DNA of 64,000 nt from Halobacteriovoraceae bacterium. Lineage in GTDB: Bacteria; Bdellovibrionota; Bacteriovoracia; Bacteriovoracales; Bacteriovoracaceae. Location of the stretch: positions 62,001 to 126,000 of the forward strand of contig PASP01000010.1 in NCBI GenBank assembly GCA_002712005.1. Direction: 5' to 3'. A program made the translations under genes and the position numbers. The notes below the pieces were generated by a model, which was given only the letters and a program-made list of their open reading frames with translations, did not search any database and was not told the origin of the DNA. Shown here piece by piece: positions 10,886-41,383 of this stretch; the stretch's first letter is position 1, and the number at the start of each line of letters is the position of its first letter.

Positions 10886-11209
10886 TTAGAGGTTAAACTC
10901 CTTCGCATTTTCTGGCGCGTGTTCAACGCTTAAAAGAGTACAACCATAACGGGGATCTTCATCCATTTTGGCCATACTGGTGAAATTTACGCCCTTTGCG
11001 ATAACTTTTTGTTCTTCTGGAAAGGCTTCCCATTTTGCCAGGATACGACTTTCTTTGGTTACCATCTTACAGTACTCTTCCGTTTGTTCTGAAATATAGA
11101 GACATGAACACATCTCTTTGGCCAAGCCTGCGGAGGGGGCTTCTGTATATTTACAGGAATTAAAGAAAACGAGACTGGCCATTGCTATAATGAGGGACAG
11201 GTTTTTCAT
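10886..11209 (-). CDS. Small lipoprotein of unknown function
   Basis: 107 residues, lipobox FFNSC (Cys19) followed by Lys. The mature part carries four further Cys (EMCSCLY, EYCKM, YGCTLL), consistent with two disulfides in the periplasm or at the outer membrane. Its ATG overlaps the TGA of the upstream hydrolase gene (ATGA), with GGAG 8 nt upstream inside that gene, so the two are translationally coupled. No family recognised. Confidence 0.75.
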   Translation of the reverse strand: MKNLSLIIAMASLVFFNSCKYTEAPSAGLAKEMCSCLYISEQTEEYCKMVTKESRILAKWEAFPEEQKVIAKGVNFTSMAKMDEDPRYGCTLLSVEHAPENAKEFNL

Positions 11210-29063: not shown

Positions 29064-31311
29064 CTATTTCACTTAGACTGATGGTTTCACCTAATTTGAC
29101 GAGAGTTCCATCAGCTTTTTGTACAAAATAGGCAGGGACTCCCACATGTCCATTTTTCTTTAGATATTCTCCAATAACGGGATCATACTTGGTCCAGTCA
29201 CCAAGTAAAAGTTTTGCTTGTTTTTTAGCAATGATCTCTTTGAAGCCTTCCGTATCAATAACAAGTTTCTCGTTTACTTTACAAGTAATACACCACTTTG
29301 CGGTGAAATCGATGAAAAGAGGAGTACGACTTTGAGCATAGTCCTTCATCTTTTCCTCTGACCACATTTCCCATTGAAGATTACTATGGCCATTCTTCTC
29401 ATTTAATAGATCAGAACCACTTGAATTTTGAGAGCTGATCATCATAAGAGGAGAGAAGAAAAGCTTAATTAGAAGAAGCAAAGGGATAGCAAAAAAGAGA
29501 GCTTTCCAGAATTTAGAGCGCCCTATATTTTTTTGAAAATAGAAAGCAAAGAATAGAAAAATTAAAGAAGAGAGAAGAAAGAGGAATGGGATATTTCCAT
29601 TGGTTAAAGATAGGAAGACGTCGACCAGCCATAATGTCGTAAGAATTAAAGTTAGCCCAAGGAACTTTTTAACATGCTCCATCCACATACCAGGCTTGGG
29701 AAGTAGTTTTACAGCACTAGGAAAGAATCCCGTTAGAAGAAAAGGGAAGGCCAATCCCAAACCAATGGACTGAAAAATAAGTATGATGGTTATAGGAGAA
29801 GAAGAAAAAGCAAATGTAAGCGCCGTTCCGAGAAAAGGAGCACTACAGGGGGTCGATAGAATTGTGGCCAAAACGCCGCCAATAAAGTCTCCCGATACAC
29901 CTTTTTTCAACTCCATATTTCCTAATGTCTTTCCACCAGGAGTCATGAACTCAAAGAGGCCAAAGAGATTAAGAGAGAAGATGAAGAGGATCAGAATCAT
30001 TATCGCTACAAAGATCGGACTTTGTAATTGAAAGCCCCAACCGACATTTTCACCTGTCGCTTTGAGCACTAAAATTGAAGCAGCAAGAAGAAGAAAGGTA
30101 AATAACACCCCTAGTGTATAGAATAAGTTATGACGTAAAATACTCGCTTTCGACTCGTCTGAATGGGCCACAAGTCCAAAGAGTTTTAGAGAGATAACAG
30201 GAAGCACGCAAGGCATAATATTTAAAATTAAACCTCCGAGGAAAGCAAAGAGAAGAATTCCCAATAATGAATCTGAGCTTTCCTTTTGCGTTTCTTGCTC
30301 AGTAACGGTTTCTGAGTCATTTTTAGCTTCTTCAGTATTTGGAGTTTCAACTTTTCCATTAGGGTTAATGAAGTTCATTGTGCCCATTAAAGATTCAATT
30401 GTCGTACCTTGATTAATATCAAATGAGTTGAAGGTCTTGGTTATGATACTAAATTCTTGAGACTGAGGATCTTGAAAGAGAAAGCTAAGGGTAATGGGAT
30501 CTTTGAATACTCCGTCCGTAGGAAAGGGAACTTCGGGTTCAGCATATTCTCCGTCCCAGCCCATATTGATTTTTCCAAAGTAGGTACCTGCTTTATTTTG
30601 ATAAAGCTTCTCTCTACGAATATCAAGTAGGCCGTGACGATAGGGGGTGAGTAAACCAAGAGGATGAAAGAGTGGTTTTCCGCCTTGATTGGTAAAATTA
30701 TAGTAGAGATTAAGTTCTAGGTCTTCAGAGCCCTTCTTTAAAACGAGATCAAGGGAGCTTGGCCAGATTTTTTTTTTGGGGAGAGCTTGATAACGATTCA
30801 AGATCTCTTCATTAGAAAGAGTAAAATCTTGAGCATTTGATGAAATCACCTGACCTTGAGAGTCGAGTTTTGCAGTGATTTCAACTTTTCCCGGTATACA
30901 AATATGTTTACAAACGAGCCATGTGGATTTGATTTTAAGCTCTTCTGGTGATTTTCCTTCAAGTGTAAAAAAACGAGAATACTGATCGGAATAGCCATAG
31001 GCCAAGATATCACCTTCTTCAATATAGCGAGTAGGGACAGGCCAATTGAATTCCTTTATTTCTAGGTTGGGAGTTTCTATTTCTATCTTGGTAGGAAGAC
31101 CTGCATCTCCTGGGTTCTTCCAATAGGTATGCCAATGGGGAAAGTTCTTATAGTTGATGACATAAACAACTTTTCCTTGGTCGATAAATGAATTAAAAAA
31201 GGTTTCAACGGGCTTGGCCGGAATTTTCTCATCAGCTAGGACCGAAAAGGATAGGAGTCCTAAGTTTACTAGTATTATAAAGAGGAGATTTGTTTTAAAA
31301 AGCTTCTTCAT
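29050..31311 (-). CDS. dsbD: Thiol:disulfide interchange protein DsbD
   Basis: 753 residues, full length. A signal peptide is followed by an N-terminal periplasmic DsbD-type domain (about 25-300). A Ser/Thr/Glu linker leads to an eight-helix membrane domain holding the two redox Cys in NIMPCVLPVISLK and STPCSAPFLG. The C-terminal thioredoxin domain has WCITCK. DsbD carries electrons from cytoplasmic thioredoxin to periplasmic isomerases, cytochrome maturation or methionine sulfoxide reductases. The many Cys-bearing secreted proteins of this window are plausible beneficiaries. A weak AGGGA is 9 nt before the ATG. Confidence 0.95.
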   Translation of the reverse strand: MKKLFKTNLLFIILVNLGLLSFSVLADEKIPAKPVETFFNSFIDQGKVVYVINYKNFPHWHTYWKNPGDAGLPTKIEIETPNLEIKEFNWPVPTRYIEEGDILAYGYSDQYSRFFTLEGKSPEELKIKSTWLVCKHICIPGKVEITAKLDSQGQVISSNAQDFTLSNEEILNRYQALPKKKIWPSSLDLVLKKGSEDLELNLYYNFTNQGGKPLFHPLGLLTPYRHGLLDIRREKLYQNKAGTYFGKINMGWDGEYAEPEVPFPTDGVFKDPITLSFLFQDPQSQEFSIITKTFNSFDINQGTTIESLMGTMNFINPNGKVETPNTEEAKNDSETVTEQETQKESSDSLLGILLFAFLGGLILNIMPCVLPVISLKLFGLVAHSDESKASILRHNLFYTLGVLFTFLLLAASILVLKATGENVGWGFQLQSPIFVAIMILILFIFSLNLFGLFEFMTPGGKTLGNMELKKGVSGDFIGGVLATILSTPCSAPFLGTALTFAFSSSPITIILIFQSIGLGLAFPFLLTGFFPSAVKLLPKPGMWMEHVKKFLGLTLILTTLWLVDVFLSLTNGNIPFLFLLSSLIFLFFAFYFQKNIGRSKFWKALFFAIPLLLLIKLFFSPLMMISSQNSSGSDLLNEKNGHSNLQWEMWSEEKMKDYAQSRTPLFIDFTAKWCITCKVNEKLVIDTEGFKEIIAKKQAKLLLGDWTKYDPVIGEYLKKNGHVGVPAYFVQKADGTLVKLGETISLSEIEAAF

Positions 31312-31456
31312 GAATCCATTTCCCTAAATTCTAAAAATAATATTTCATTATGATAATGAAGTTATTTGATATTCTCTATAACTTTATCCACTACACTCAA
31401 TGAAACTCTATGTATTTCTCGTACTATCGTAATGATTGTGTCTTCACTGTAATATA

Positions 31457-31485
31457 TTGGAAATATATCTCAAATTAGGTAATCT
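31457..31485 (+). promoter_or_regulatory. Predicted leaderless promoter
   Basis: TTGGAA (31457-31462), 17-nt spacer, TAATCT (31480-31485), then 6 nt to ATG 31492. No Shine-Dalgarno is present. Confidence 0.55.
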
Positions 31486-31491
31486 TTTGTC

Positions 31492-32301
31492 ATGAAATTG
31501 CCAACTTTGCCCCATCGAATCATTTGTTTAACCGAAGAAGCAGCGGAACTGCTTTATTTACTCGGTGAGCAAGATCGTATTATTGGAATATCTGCCTTTG
31601 CGCTAAGGCCTACTGGAATTAAGAAGAATCACCCTGTCGTTTCAGTTTTTACCCACACCCAGATTGAAAAAGTGGGGGATTTAAAACCTGATTTGATTAT
31701 TGGATATTCTGACATCCAAAAGGATATTGCTCGCGAGCTTATTGAAAAAGGGCATAATGTATTTATATCCAATCATCGCTCACTTCAAGAAGTCATTAAT
31801 TACTGTGCAACAATTGCTTCTTTAGTGGATGCGAATTCTCGTTTTGAAAAAATCGTGGAGAGATGGCTAGAGAAAATCGAAGAGGCCAAAAGATTTGCTC
31901 GCAAATTAAAAGAGCAGGGTCATTCGCTTAAGGTTTATATCGAAGAGTGGGATGAGCCAAGAATATCGGGAATTCACTACTTTTCTGAATTAGTCGAATT
32001 ATGTGGACTTGAAGATATAAACTCACATCTACGAACTGGATTTTTGGCCAAAGAGCGCTTCCCCGATGAGAAATATATCATCGAGTCTGATCCCGACTTA
32101 ATCCTTGCTTGCTGGTGTGGCAAGAAAGTGGAGCTGGATTCTTTTTCCCAAAGAGAGGGATGGTCTTCTCTAAAGTCGGTTCGTAATAAACAAATCTATG
32201 AACTTCCTCCTGAAATCTTTCTTCAGCCGGGTCCGGCCTTATTTGAAGAGGGGATCGATTACCTGATTGAATTAGTCGAGAAAATGACTCGATCGTCCTG
32301 A
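31492..32301 (+). CDS. Cobalamin-binding-type periplasmic-binding-fold protein lacking a signal peptide
   Basis: 269 residues of the BtuF/FepB-like fold: RIICLTEEAAELLYLLGEQDRIIGIS, VGDLKPDLIIGYSDI, KGHNVFISNH, ISGIHYFSELVELCG, ESDPDLILACWCGKK and NKQIYELPPEIFLQPGPAL. The start MKLPTLPHRI has no signal peptide or lipobox, and no ABC permease or ATPase lies next to it. A group of annotated cobalamin-binding proteins has this cytoplasmic form; the real ligand is unknown. It ends with TGA, showing that TGA is a working stop codon here. Confidence 0.82.
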   Translation: MKLPTLPHRIICLTEEAAELLYLLGEQDRIIGISAFALRPTGIKKNHPVVSVFTHTQIEKVGDLKPDLIIGYSDIQKDIARELIEKGHNVFISNHRSLQEVINYCATIASLVDANSRFEKIVERWLEKIEEAKRFARKLKEQGHSLKVYIEEWDEPRISGIHYFSELVELCGLEDINSHLRTGFLAKERFPDEKYIIESDPDLILACWCGKKVELDSFSQREGWSSLKSVRNKQIYELPPEIFLQPGPALFEEGIDYLIELVEKMTRSS

Positions 32302-32357
32302 TTTAAATTGCTTAAGTCGTAATTTTGCCCTTTATCTTTCTTTATTTCCTAGAAAAT

Positions 32358-32384
32358 TAAACTTTCCAGAACTTTGGTCGATAA
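32358..32384 (+). promoter_or_regulatory. Sigma-28 (FliA)-type flagellar promoter
   Basis: TAAACTTT at 32358-32365, 11 nt, GTCGATAA at 32377-32384. The enterobacterial consensus is TAAAGTTT-N11-GCCGATAA, so 14 of 16 positions match with exact spacing. Predicted transcription begins near 32391, about 46 nt before the ATG at 32437. A second copy of the -10 in inverse orientation (TTATCGAC, 32405-32412) makes an inverted repeat. Confidence 0.7.
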
Positions 32385-32436
32385 GTTGAGAGAAGACGTG
32401 TGCTTTATCGACTTTTAAACAAGAACGGATACGTTT

Positions 32437-33207
32437 ATGAAATGGATTAAATCGAGAAATTTGTCATTATTGATTTTAGCTGGAACTGCAATCTCTTTGA
32501 ACTCATGTGAGAGCATAGAGCGTTTTGAAGCAAAGGCTGAAAAAATTAATCGTTACGAAAGAGTTTCCCTTCATCTTTCAAAAGAGAATCGTGATTTGAA
32601 GGCTCAGATAGGGCGTTTACAAGATCAAGTCCAAGTTTTGAAATCTGAAAAAAACTTTCTTCAAATTAAGTTAGATAAGTACGCTGGAGATAAGCCTACA
32701 ATGGCTTCTGTTAAATCGTCACCAAGTAGTAGTCGCTCTATTGCTAGTGTTGCTCCAAAATTTTCAGTGGCTCCCTCTCAAGATCTTGTAAAGTTTGATG
32801 TATATAAGTGGACTCCTTCTCAAATTCTCGCAATGGCGGAAAAAGAATTTGAGGCAAAGAACTACGAAAAGTCTGCGCAATTTTTTACGACATTTTCTCA
32901 TCAATTCCCAGGGCACGAAAGAATTAATGATGCCTTTCTCTTTCAAGCCGGAGTGGCTGCATATGAATCGGGAAAGCATCAAGATTGGACTTTAAGTCAC
33001 CTTGAAAAGCTCGTTCAAGAGTACCCAACTTCAAAATATTACCGAGGCGCAAAACTTTGGATGGCATTGACTTATTTAGAACAAGGAAAAGAATCCAAGT
33101 TTTTTCACACTGTAGAAGAGTTTAGAAAGAAGTACCGCAATACAGATGAGTGGAAAGTGTTAAGCCCTCACTATGAAAAAATTGTTCAAAAGTATAAAAG
33201 GAACTAA
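32437..33207 (+). CDS. Lipoprotein with coiled coil and TPR-like repeats (CpoB/YbgF-like)
   Basis: 256 residues, lipobox SLNSC (near Cys24) followed by Glu. Residues about 35-85 are a coiled coil (ENRDLKAQIGRLQDQVQVLKSEKNFLQIKLDKY), then a Ser-rich linker. The C-terminal TPR-type repeats (AEKEFEAKNYEKSAQFFTTFSHQFPGH, DAFLFQAGVAAYESGKHQ, KLVQEYPTSKYYRGAKLWMALTYLEQG) are of the kind seen in YbgF/CpoB and BamD. Coiled coil plus TPR is the CpoB arrangement, but the lipid anchor differs. It heads a two-gene operon with the FecR protein behind a flagellar-type promoter, so a motility-linked envelope role is inferred. Confidence 0.8.
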   Translation: MKWIKSRNLSLLILAGTAISLNSCESIERFEAKAEKINRYERVSLHLSKENRDLKAQIGRLQDQVQVLKSEKNFLQIKLDKYAGDKPTMASVKSSPSSSRSIASVAPKFSVAPSQDLVKFDVYKWTPSQILAMAEKEFEAKNYEKSAQFFTTFSHQFPGHERINDAFLFQAGVAAYESGKHQDWTLSHLEKLVQEYPTSKYYRGAKLWMALTYLEQGKESKFFHTVEEFRKKYRNTDEWKVLSPHYEKIVQKYKRN

Positions 33208-33210
33208 AGC

Positions 33211-34449
33211 ATGACTCGTATCATTCTTTTTATGGCCATTGTTCTATTTAATATTGCTAGCTTTGCAGCTTCTAACAAACTTATTGTGGTGGTTAGCGAA
33301 GTAAAGGGGAATGCTTTTTATTCTCTAGGTGGCAAAACAAAGGTTTTAAAAGAGGGAGTTCATCTTCCTGCAAGTGCAGAGATATTTACTGAAGTAGGTT
33401 CTCAAATCGCTTTCAATGACTACTATGACCATGTATTCTATCTTTCCGGTGGAGCGCATTTAATTGTTTATCCTAATTTAGTGGAACTTAAAGAGGGTTA
33501 TCTTTGGATTAAATCTCTTTCCTATGATCCTCTAAGAGGACCATTAAAAGTAACAACGGCTAACTCACTGATTGAAAATAAGAAAGGTGAGGGAATCTTA
33601 AGTTTTGATTCTTATTCAGGAAAGACTCAAGTTCTATCTATTAAAGGTGACTTCGACTTAAAAAATATTCGTCAAGAATTCCAGTGGACCCAAGTGGGAG
33701 ATGGACAATTTTCTTTCATCCAAGATGAATACAATAAGGGTGTACCACGTAGAGCGACGCCTATTGGATACTCAAGTTATAAGAAGGTGACTTCCCTTTT
33801 TTCTGGAGTCGAGGCCTTTGATGAAAAGAAGATGGAAAGAAGTCAAAAACTACGTCCTACGATAACAAGAACGGCATCCCATTCTACAGAGGATAGTCGC
33901 TCTCATACAAGTGAAAGTGCTTCCAAAAGATCAATAGCATCTGTTTCTAATGTTGATCCTTTTGAAAAGGCCCTCCAAAACTCTAAAGGAGAAGTGACAA
34001 TTATAAAACTTCGTGATCCTGAAAAAGAGAAAGCTCATGAAAAAAATTTAATGAATTTTTATAAGAATAAAGTGACAGAACTTGGAAAGCCTAAACCAAA
34101 AAAGAAGTGGTCTCCCAGTTATTCTGATAAGAGTAACGTTAAAGTGATGGTCTTTGGATCGGGAAGTTCACATAAGAAGACTTCTCCTACACATGAAGTA
34201 AGAAAGACTCGCTCATTACGAATGCCTGCATCAATAAAACCGGCCAAAACTAATGAAGAAGTAAATTCCTATAAGAAAAAGTATAGAACACCGGCTAGTA
34301 TTGGCAAGATGGTGCCTACTGTTAAAAATAGTGCCTTTGAAAGCGAGCTTGTAGATCAGTACAAGAAACAAATGCGCCACGAAGACGAGGTTAATCAGTT
34401 AATAGATCAGCTAAAGTCTATTGATATGGATTACAAAAAAGAATATTAA
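33211..34449 (+). CDS. FecR-domain exported protein
   Basis: 412 residues with a signal peptide (MTRIILFMAIVLFNIASFAAS, cleavage near 20). Residues about 25-185 form a FecR domain (VVVSEVKGNAFYSLGGKTKVLKEGVHLPASAEIFTEVGSQIAF, LKVTTANSLIENKKGEGILSF, WTQVGDGQFSFI). The remaining 200 residues are basic, Ser/Lys-rich and low in complexity, ending with a charged helix. FecR domains outside iron signalling often bind peptidoglycan or act in envelope complexes. It is 3 nt after the TPR lipoprotein gene, with AAGGA inside that gene's end, so the two are co-translated. Confidence 0.82.
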   Translation: MTRIILFMAIVLFNIASFAASNKLIVVVSEVKGNAFYSLGGKTKVLKEGVHLPASAEIFTEVGSQIAFNDYYDHVFYLSGGAHLIVYPNLVELKEGYLWIKSLSYDPLRGPLKVTTANSLIENKKGEGILSFDSYSGKTQVLSIKGDFDLKNIRQEFQWTQVGDGQFSFIQDEYNKGVPRRATPIGYSSYKKVTSLFSGVEAFDEKKMERSQKLRPTITRTASHSTEDSRSHTSESASKRSIASVSNVDPFEKALQNSKGEVTIIKLRDPEKEKAHEKNLMNFYKNKVTELGKPKPKKKWSPSYSDKSNVKVMVFGSGSSHKKTSPTHEVRKTRSLRMPASIKPAKTNEEVNSYKKKYRTPASIGKMVPTVKNSAFESELVDQYKKQMRHEDEVNQLIDQLKSIDMDYKKEY

Positions 34450-40547: not shown

Positions 40548-41285
40548 TTATGGCTTAATATCCCCAGCTTTGGGAAGTTGGCAATTTAAGAGATTGGCCT
40601 CAACCCAATCTTTTGCATAATTTTCAGCTTGTACCCAGTTCATTCCTAATTCATGATCTGCGTATTGGTTAATTTCTCTAGCTGACTGAACTAAGGTCGT
40701 AGCATCACAAAGAAGGTCCACTTTTTCTTTTGCATAGTTACCAGCTTGAACCCAATTTAATCCAAGATAGTTGTCTGAGGCACTATTTAAAGCCTTCGCA
40801 TTGGCTGCATAAGTATCTGCAACTTCACAAGGATATTTTTGCATTCACTGTGCTGCAAAGTTCTCGGCTTGAAGCCAATTCATTTCAAATTCATCATCAG
40901 CGATATCATTGATAAGAGCAGTCACTCTTTTCTTTGTTGCAAAGTCTAAGTTCTTAGTTGTTTCTTCGTCACAGGATAAATACTTCTCAACAGGACGAGG
41001 AGGAGTAGGGACTGGATTTGGAATATTTCTACCTCTTAGAATACGCTTAGAAGATTGAAGAGCATCTTTCAAGGCATCAAGGTCAGCATCATCAAGTGTG
41101 ATAATTCGAGAAGCCGTCAGTACAGAAACCTGAAGGGCCAGTTCTTTAATTTGTTCAATTTTCTGTTCTCTTGCAAATTCTCTTCTTCTATTGAGAACAT
41201 CGTCGCGGTCAACACGGTTTGATTGGGCGAAACTTGTAGCAGTTATAAGTGTACAGATCCCAACTAAGGCAGCTTTTTTCATCAT
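40548..41285 (-). pseudogene. Secreted three-repeat protein interrupted by in-frame TGA
   Basis: Starts at ATG 41285 (GGAGG 5 nt upstream; a second ATG follows at once) with signal peptide MKKAALVGICTLITATSFAQ. The frame runs to TGA at 40847-40845 and continues open, in the same frame, from ATG 40844 to 40548. Three modules of about 40-50 residues, each Cys-bounded, share (D/N)xxxxxNW(L/V)QAxN(F/Y)A: EMNWLQAENFA, GLNWVQAGNYA, GMNWVQAENYA. The TGA lies in the first module where the third has Trp (AKDWVE). Either a nonsense mutation, recoding or sequencing error. Read through, it would be about 245 residues with a signal peptide. Function unknown. Confidence 0.7.
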
Positions 41286-41383
41286 AAATTCCTCCAAGAA
41301 CTTTTTTCTGTAAAAGAGGAATATCATAAATGGGTTTGGGATAGATAGAATTTGTAGAGCTTACACGGGGGTGCAAAAAGATA

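Follow-up and report, generated by a model that had tools for sequence, protein, structure and literature searches.

Why is a gene for an apparently secreted repeat protein interrupted by an in-frame TGA? The gene lies in a stretch of 64,000 nucleotides from a draft assembly of a Halobacteriovoraceae bacterium, here called the window, and an earlier reading of its letters (the sequence-only reading) offered four options in no order of preference, i.e. a recent nonsense mutation, a sequence error, programmed readthrough, or two coupled products. The comparisons described below allow these to be ranked: sequence error comes out best, nonsense mutation is its main rival, and the other two fare poorly. 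We consider it likely that the TGA is a single-base sequence error in the draft assembly, and that the locus is one ordinary gene.

The interrupted gene

The features of the locus are listed below in window coordinates.

40548..41285, minus strand: interrupted gene, predicted to encode an exported three-repeat Cys-containing protein; 245 codons including the TGA, start ATG at 41285-41283
41225..41285, minus strand: putative signal-peptide-like N terminus (MMKKAALVGICTLITATSFA), from direct reading
40845..40847, minus strand: in-frame TGA; homologues have TGG (10/12) or TTC/TTT (2/12)
40842..40844, minus strand: ATG right after the TGA; internal Met codon in the same-genus homologues L003 and L005
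40482..40512, minus strand: terminator-like hairpin and T tract, 3' of the second half

Read directly, the minus strand around the stop is TTT GCA GCA CAG TGA ATG CAA AAA TAT CCT TGT, which confirms that two in-phase frames are parted only by the TGA (40847-40845) followed at once by ATG. The upstream ORF (40845-41327) has 146 codons before the TGA if counted from the start used here, the ATG at 41285, just 5' of which stands a GGAGGA ribosome-binding site; the downstream ORF (40548-40844) has 98 codons in the same phase, with the TGA as the sole separator. Both flanks of the TGA score highly as coding sequence (about 1.1 bits per codon), and in profile and protein searches both halves align with homologues as one protein, so that a chance in-phase match is excluded. 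The hairpin and T tract are consistent with one transcription unit. The source genome has one copy of the gene.

If the TGA is read as Trp, a 245-residue protein is obtained that combines a signal-like N terminus, a linker rich in Pro, and three repeats with Cys at their ends. The TGA falls in the first of the three Cys-bounded repeats (NWLQAENFAAQ*MQKYPC, the asterisk marking the stop), and the matching position is occupied by Lys in repeat 2 (NWVQAGNYAKEKVDLLC) and by Trp in repeat 3 (NWVQAENYAKDWVEANLLNC), just as the sequence-only reading had it. AlphaFold gives a helical repeat model with a mean pLDDT of 68, the helices from residue 115 on being mostly above 80. The modelled helices span residues 115-131, 137-150, 153-173, 178-191, 195-211 and 217-231, i.e. 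two per repeat. The TGA corresponds in this model to residue 147, within the second helix of repeat 1 (137-150), so neither half would form the whole domain.

The TGA codon in homologues

A profile search of 129 Bacteriovoracaceae genomes found 12 full-length homologues (L002-L008, L017 and L020-L023), each of them a single uninterrupted gene, with an internal stop in 0 of 12. A search at protein level in related genomes found a clear match in 7 of 58 other genomes, plus one marginal match, and a single-protein search of the genome-contig collection gave no match. It had been proposed that related genomes be inspected for TGG at this codon, and TGG is indeed what 10 of the 12 homologues carry, while the other two have Phe (TTC in L020, TTT in L021). 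In the first eight-sequence alignment, into which the query TGA was itself entered as Trp, Trp at this site is one of 14 invariant columns. As all 12 homologues are single genes and not two separate ones, the interruption stands.

The codon that follows is also instructive. In both same-genus homologues (records JASBRV010000003.1 and CATLOT010000012.1, metagenome-assembled genomes of Bacteriovoracales/Bacteriovoracaceae) it is ATG, within the motif W-M-x-K-Y-P-C. Since these genes carry it as an internal Met, the ATG at 40844-40842 is, judging from the aligned codons, an internal codon of long standing rather than a start that arose with the stop.

Single in-frame stops across the assembly

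We scanned 1.22 Mb of the same assembly (contigs C3, C15 and C7, about 31% of the genome) for single stops with in-frame coding signal on both flanks, a target that covers stop-making substitutions only. A case was called firm if a family alignment or a Pfam domain spans the stop; adjacent genes were set aside. At least 12 firm single in-frame stops were found in intact-looking genes in the 1.22 Mb (5 TGA, 4 TAG and 3 TAA), as follows.

Dus enzyme: TAA
Epimerase: TAG
Response-regulator domain: TGA
LolD-like protein: TGA, at G000:C15:377954 (L073, position 7954)
S13 carboxypeptidase: TAG
Succinate-semialdehyde dehydrogenase: TAA; the best match has Glu there
MurA: TGA, at G000:C15:424671 (L136)
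CusB-like protein: TAA
CHASE2 cyclase: TAG
Penicillin amidase: TGA
Solute-binding protein: TAG
Window gene (40548..41285): TGA, at C3:102847

The window itself contains one clear interruption only, about 0.6 being expected per 64 kb. Two of the other genes are of special interest, as a cell is not expected to survive the loss of murA or lolD. In the lolD-like gene the stop lies within Walker A (GASGS*KSTL), at a site where 2pcj, the closest LolD of known structure, carries Gly; the gene adjoins a LolC/E-like gene and lies upstream of a BamA-like gene, these neighbours being named from translations alone. The murA gene is single-copy in the genome, its weak second match being probably AroA, and its stop aligns with a Gly of MurA structures. 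Overall, one of 39 ABC domains and one of 63 response-regulator domains are broken in the source genome.

Relatives present a different picture. The same scan in 400 kb of one relative (G020) gave no interruption, only apparent adjacent-gene pairs, although about 3.9 interruptions would be expected there at the rate of the source genome (Poisson P of none = 0.02). Eight relatives, for which approximately 150 ABC domains were listed, showed no stop in any of these.

TGA makes up 5 of the 12 firm cases, no significant departure from the 25.5% expected from random substitutions given the codon use (P = 0.20). As Gly and Glu codons have become stops in several cases, a G-to-T error bias was considered, but the counts are too low to support one, and GAA and GGA would often be hit in any event.

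Besides those in the lolD-like gene and murA, single in-frame stops (TAA, TAG, TGA) in intact-looking genes lie at C15:82858, 122453, 392474 and 417905, at C3:250602 and 310071, and at C7:42971 and 85453. Other sites resemble interruptions and have no spanning domain (C7:47165, C7:238143, C15:26030, C3:305525, C15:134724 and C3:248344). The candidates at C15:157976 (CheA/CheW) and C7:77224, together with most of those that have a nearby start codon, were judged to be adjacent genes and were left uncounted.

Isolated Ns in the assembly

The assembly also contains unresolved bases, isolated single Ns that are confined to some stretches; other sampled stretches, the window included, are without Ns. 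There are 56 single Ns in C3:157158-302706 (3.9e-4 per base, about one per 2.6 kb), and C7 has 11 in two small clusters (30043-33301 and 243671-249484). Where the reading frame is clear, the Ns of C3 fall on codon positions 1, 2 and 3 in 16, 14 and 23 cases respectively, i.e. nearly at random; set against an assumed 75% third-position share of real polymorphism, this distribution has a P of about 1e-6. Wrong bases at the density of these Ns elsewhere would predict 13.6 nonsense changes for 820 kb, where about 14 were seen (10 firm and 4 probable), and 20 for 1.22 Mb, where about 18 were seen (firm plus probable). The agreement is suggestive, on the assumption that Ns and wrong bases have one cause.

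Sequence error or nonsense mutation

Sequence error appears the best of the options because single-base stops recur throughout the assembly, in essential genes as well, and are of all three types. Against this reading count the presence of Ns in some stretches only, the window with its one clear interruption having none, and the indirect way in which wrong bases are connected with Ns. On balance we infer that sequence error, rather than mutation, is most likely the cause of the TGA. A Trp codon TGG would have been deposited falsely as TGA in the gene for an exported, all-helical, three-repeat protein containing Cys, either as one among many substitution errors or as an unresolved ambiguous site that was called as one base. 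The error density of the assembly would be roughly one per 2-3 kb where the Ns allow it to be gauged, and living cells would then produce the complete protein of 245 residues from this gene.

The main rival is a real and recent nonsense mutation of TGG to TGA, after which the product would end at 146 residues and the gene would be a fresh pseudogene. It requires a one-base change at a conserved Trp, both flanks being still intact, and the error rate of the assembly with which it competes is an inferred figure. Moreover, the family is patchy: being absent from most relatives, the protein looks dispensable, and a cell could tolerate a true nonsense mutation in it. However, the background of stops also strikes indispensable genes, the single-copy murA and lolD among them, so that a source of false stops exists already and accounts for the TGA of the window without any special event. 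We therefore hold a nonsense mutation to be rather unlikely, if far from negligible.

Premature stops caused by assembly errors are a known problem (Kastor, PMC12007338). The case treated there is similar to ours in that premature stops split genes in one assembly while the relatives are intact; it differs in that the Kastor abstract is concerned with long-read errors, frameshifts and premature stops, whereas here stop-making substitutions only are considered.

If sequence error is the cause, the TGA in the window gene probably means nothing as biology. The case does serve as a warning: a single-base stop in this assembly can pass for recoding, a pseudogene or a split gene, and any other conspicuous feature of one codon in the source genome should first be compared with relatives.

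Decoding of UGA

Could UGA be read as an amino acid in this organism? The sequence-only reading had deemed full reassignment unlikely on the grounds that TGA serves as the stop of other window ORFs, as it indeed does for long ones at 11206, 32301 and 57989, and this judgement is reinforced by several observations. The stops of the 54 window ORFs, the present one included, are 34 TAA, 15 TAG and 5 TGA. The RF2 gene (prfB) is intact in the source genome. Among the 34 tRNAs found, the anticodon UCA occurs in none of the 30 that were read, and the other four are 82-85 bases long, which is class II length. Reassignment of UGA to Trp was rejected on these grounds. A genome-wide reassignment of UGA was rejected as well, for genes are interrupted just as often by TAA and by TAG, and TGA itself is found at both Trp and Gly sites, so that no single decoding rule fits. 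Selenocysteine insertion was also discarded, since a tRNA-Sec above the cut-off was not found in the genome and the RNA around the TGA has no stable structure, being no more structured than shuffled sequences (z = -0.27).

It is useful to compare these features with the known variant codes. In NCBI code 4 (UGA to Trp) and code 25 (UGA to Gly), internal UGA codons likewise occupy Trp or Gly sites. The source genome is different in that it has RF2, uses UGA to end normal genes, and also contains genes interrupted by TAA or TAG; the likeness does not imply recoding.

A more limited form of decoding would be programmed or ambiguous readthrough that inserts Trp at the UGA, giving a short exported form and a little full-length protein. 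The coding signal is kept in both halves, the TGA is at a Trp position, and a UGA with A as the next base counts as a leaky context. Against this, TGA stands at Gly positions and TAA and TAG interrupt genes elsewhere in the same genome, RF2 is intact, no tRNA that decodes UGA was found, and neither was a tRNA-Sec over the cut-off. Only one tRNA-Trp was found; its anticodon is CCA and, by manual reading, its D-arm has the normal base G at position 24, so a Hirsh-type tRNA-Trp was not found. With unstructured surroundings and a stop in none of the 12 full-length homologues, readthrough is very improbable.

Even less credible is the idea of two translationally coupled products, the second starting at the ATG that, directly after the TGA, might serve for a restart: this codon is an internal Met in both intact same-genus homologues, it has no AGGA/GGAG-type ribosome-binding motif 5' of it, the break would fall inside the predicted helix 137-150 and leave a second half without a signal sequence, and, the homologues being always one gene, a pair of genes is rejected in favour of a single interrupted one. 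Finally, we give hardly any credence to the possibility that this bacterium has many real TGA, TAG and TAA nonsense codons, also in essential genes, and tolerates them by general readthrough, the window gene being one example; were the stops real, it would be remarkable for a cell to live with murA and lolD both interrupted in this way.

The three-repeat family

The window gene resembles its homologues in the signal-like N terminus, the three repeats and the Cys at the repeat borders; most members also have the Pro-rich linker, and Trp or Phe is found at the position of the TGA. It differs from them as the sole copy with a stop, and its identity to the eight aligned relatives is 24-33%. Searches with the window protein gave no convincing family in Pfam, NCBIfam or PHROGs, and Foldseek found no significant match to its model in the PDB. 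With these negatives covering the window member, the exported three-repeat family of the Bacteriovoracaceae is an undescribed one. At most, to judge by its sequence, the protein can be described as putatively exported, i.e. of the cell envelope or extracellular, which is the furthest assignment that is supported. The repeats of the homologues L002, L004, L006-L008, L017 and L020-L023 are of the type KxFAYSxSGLDLSSxxAxxFA followed by Cys.
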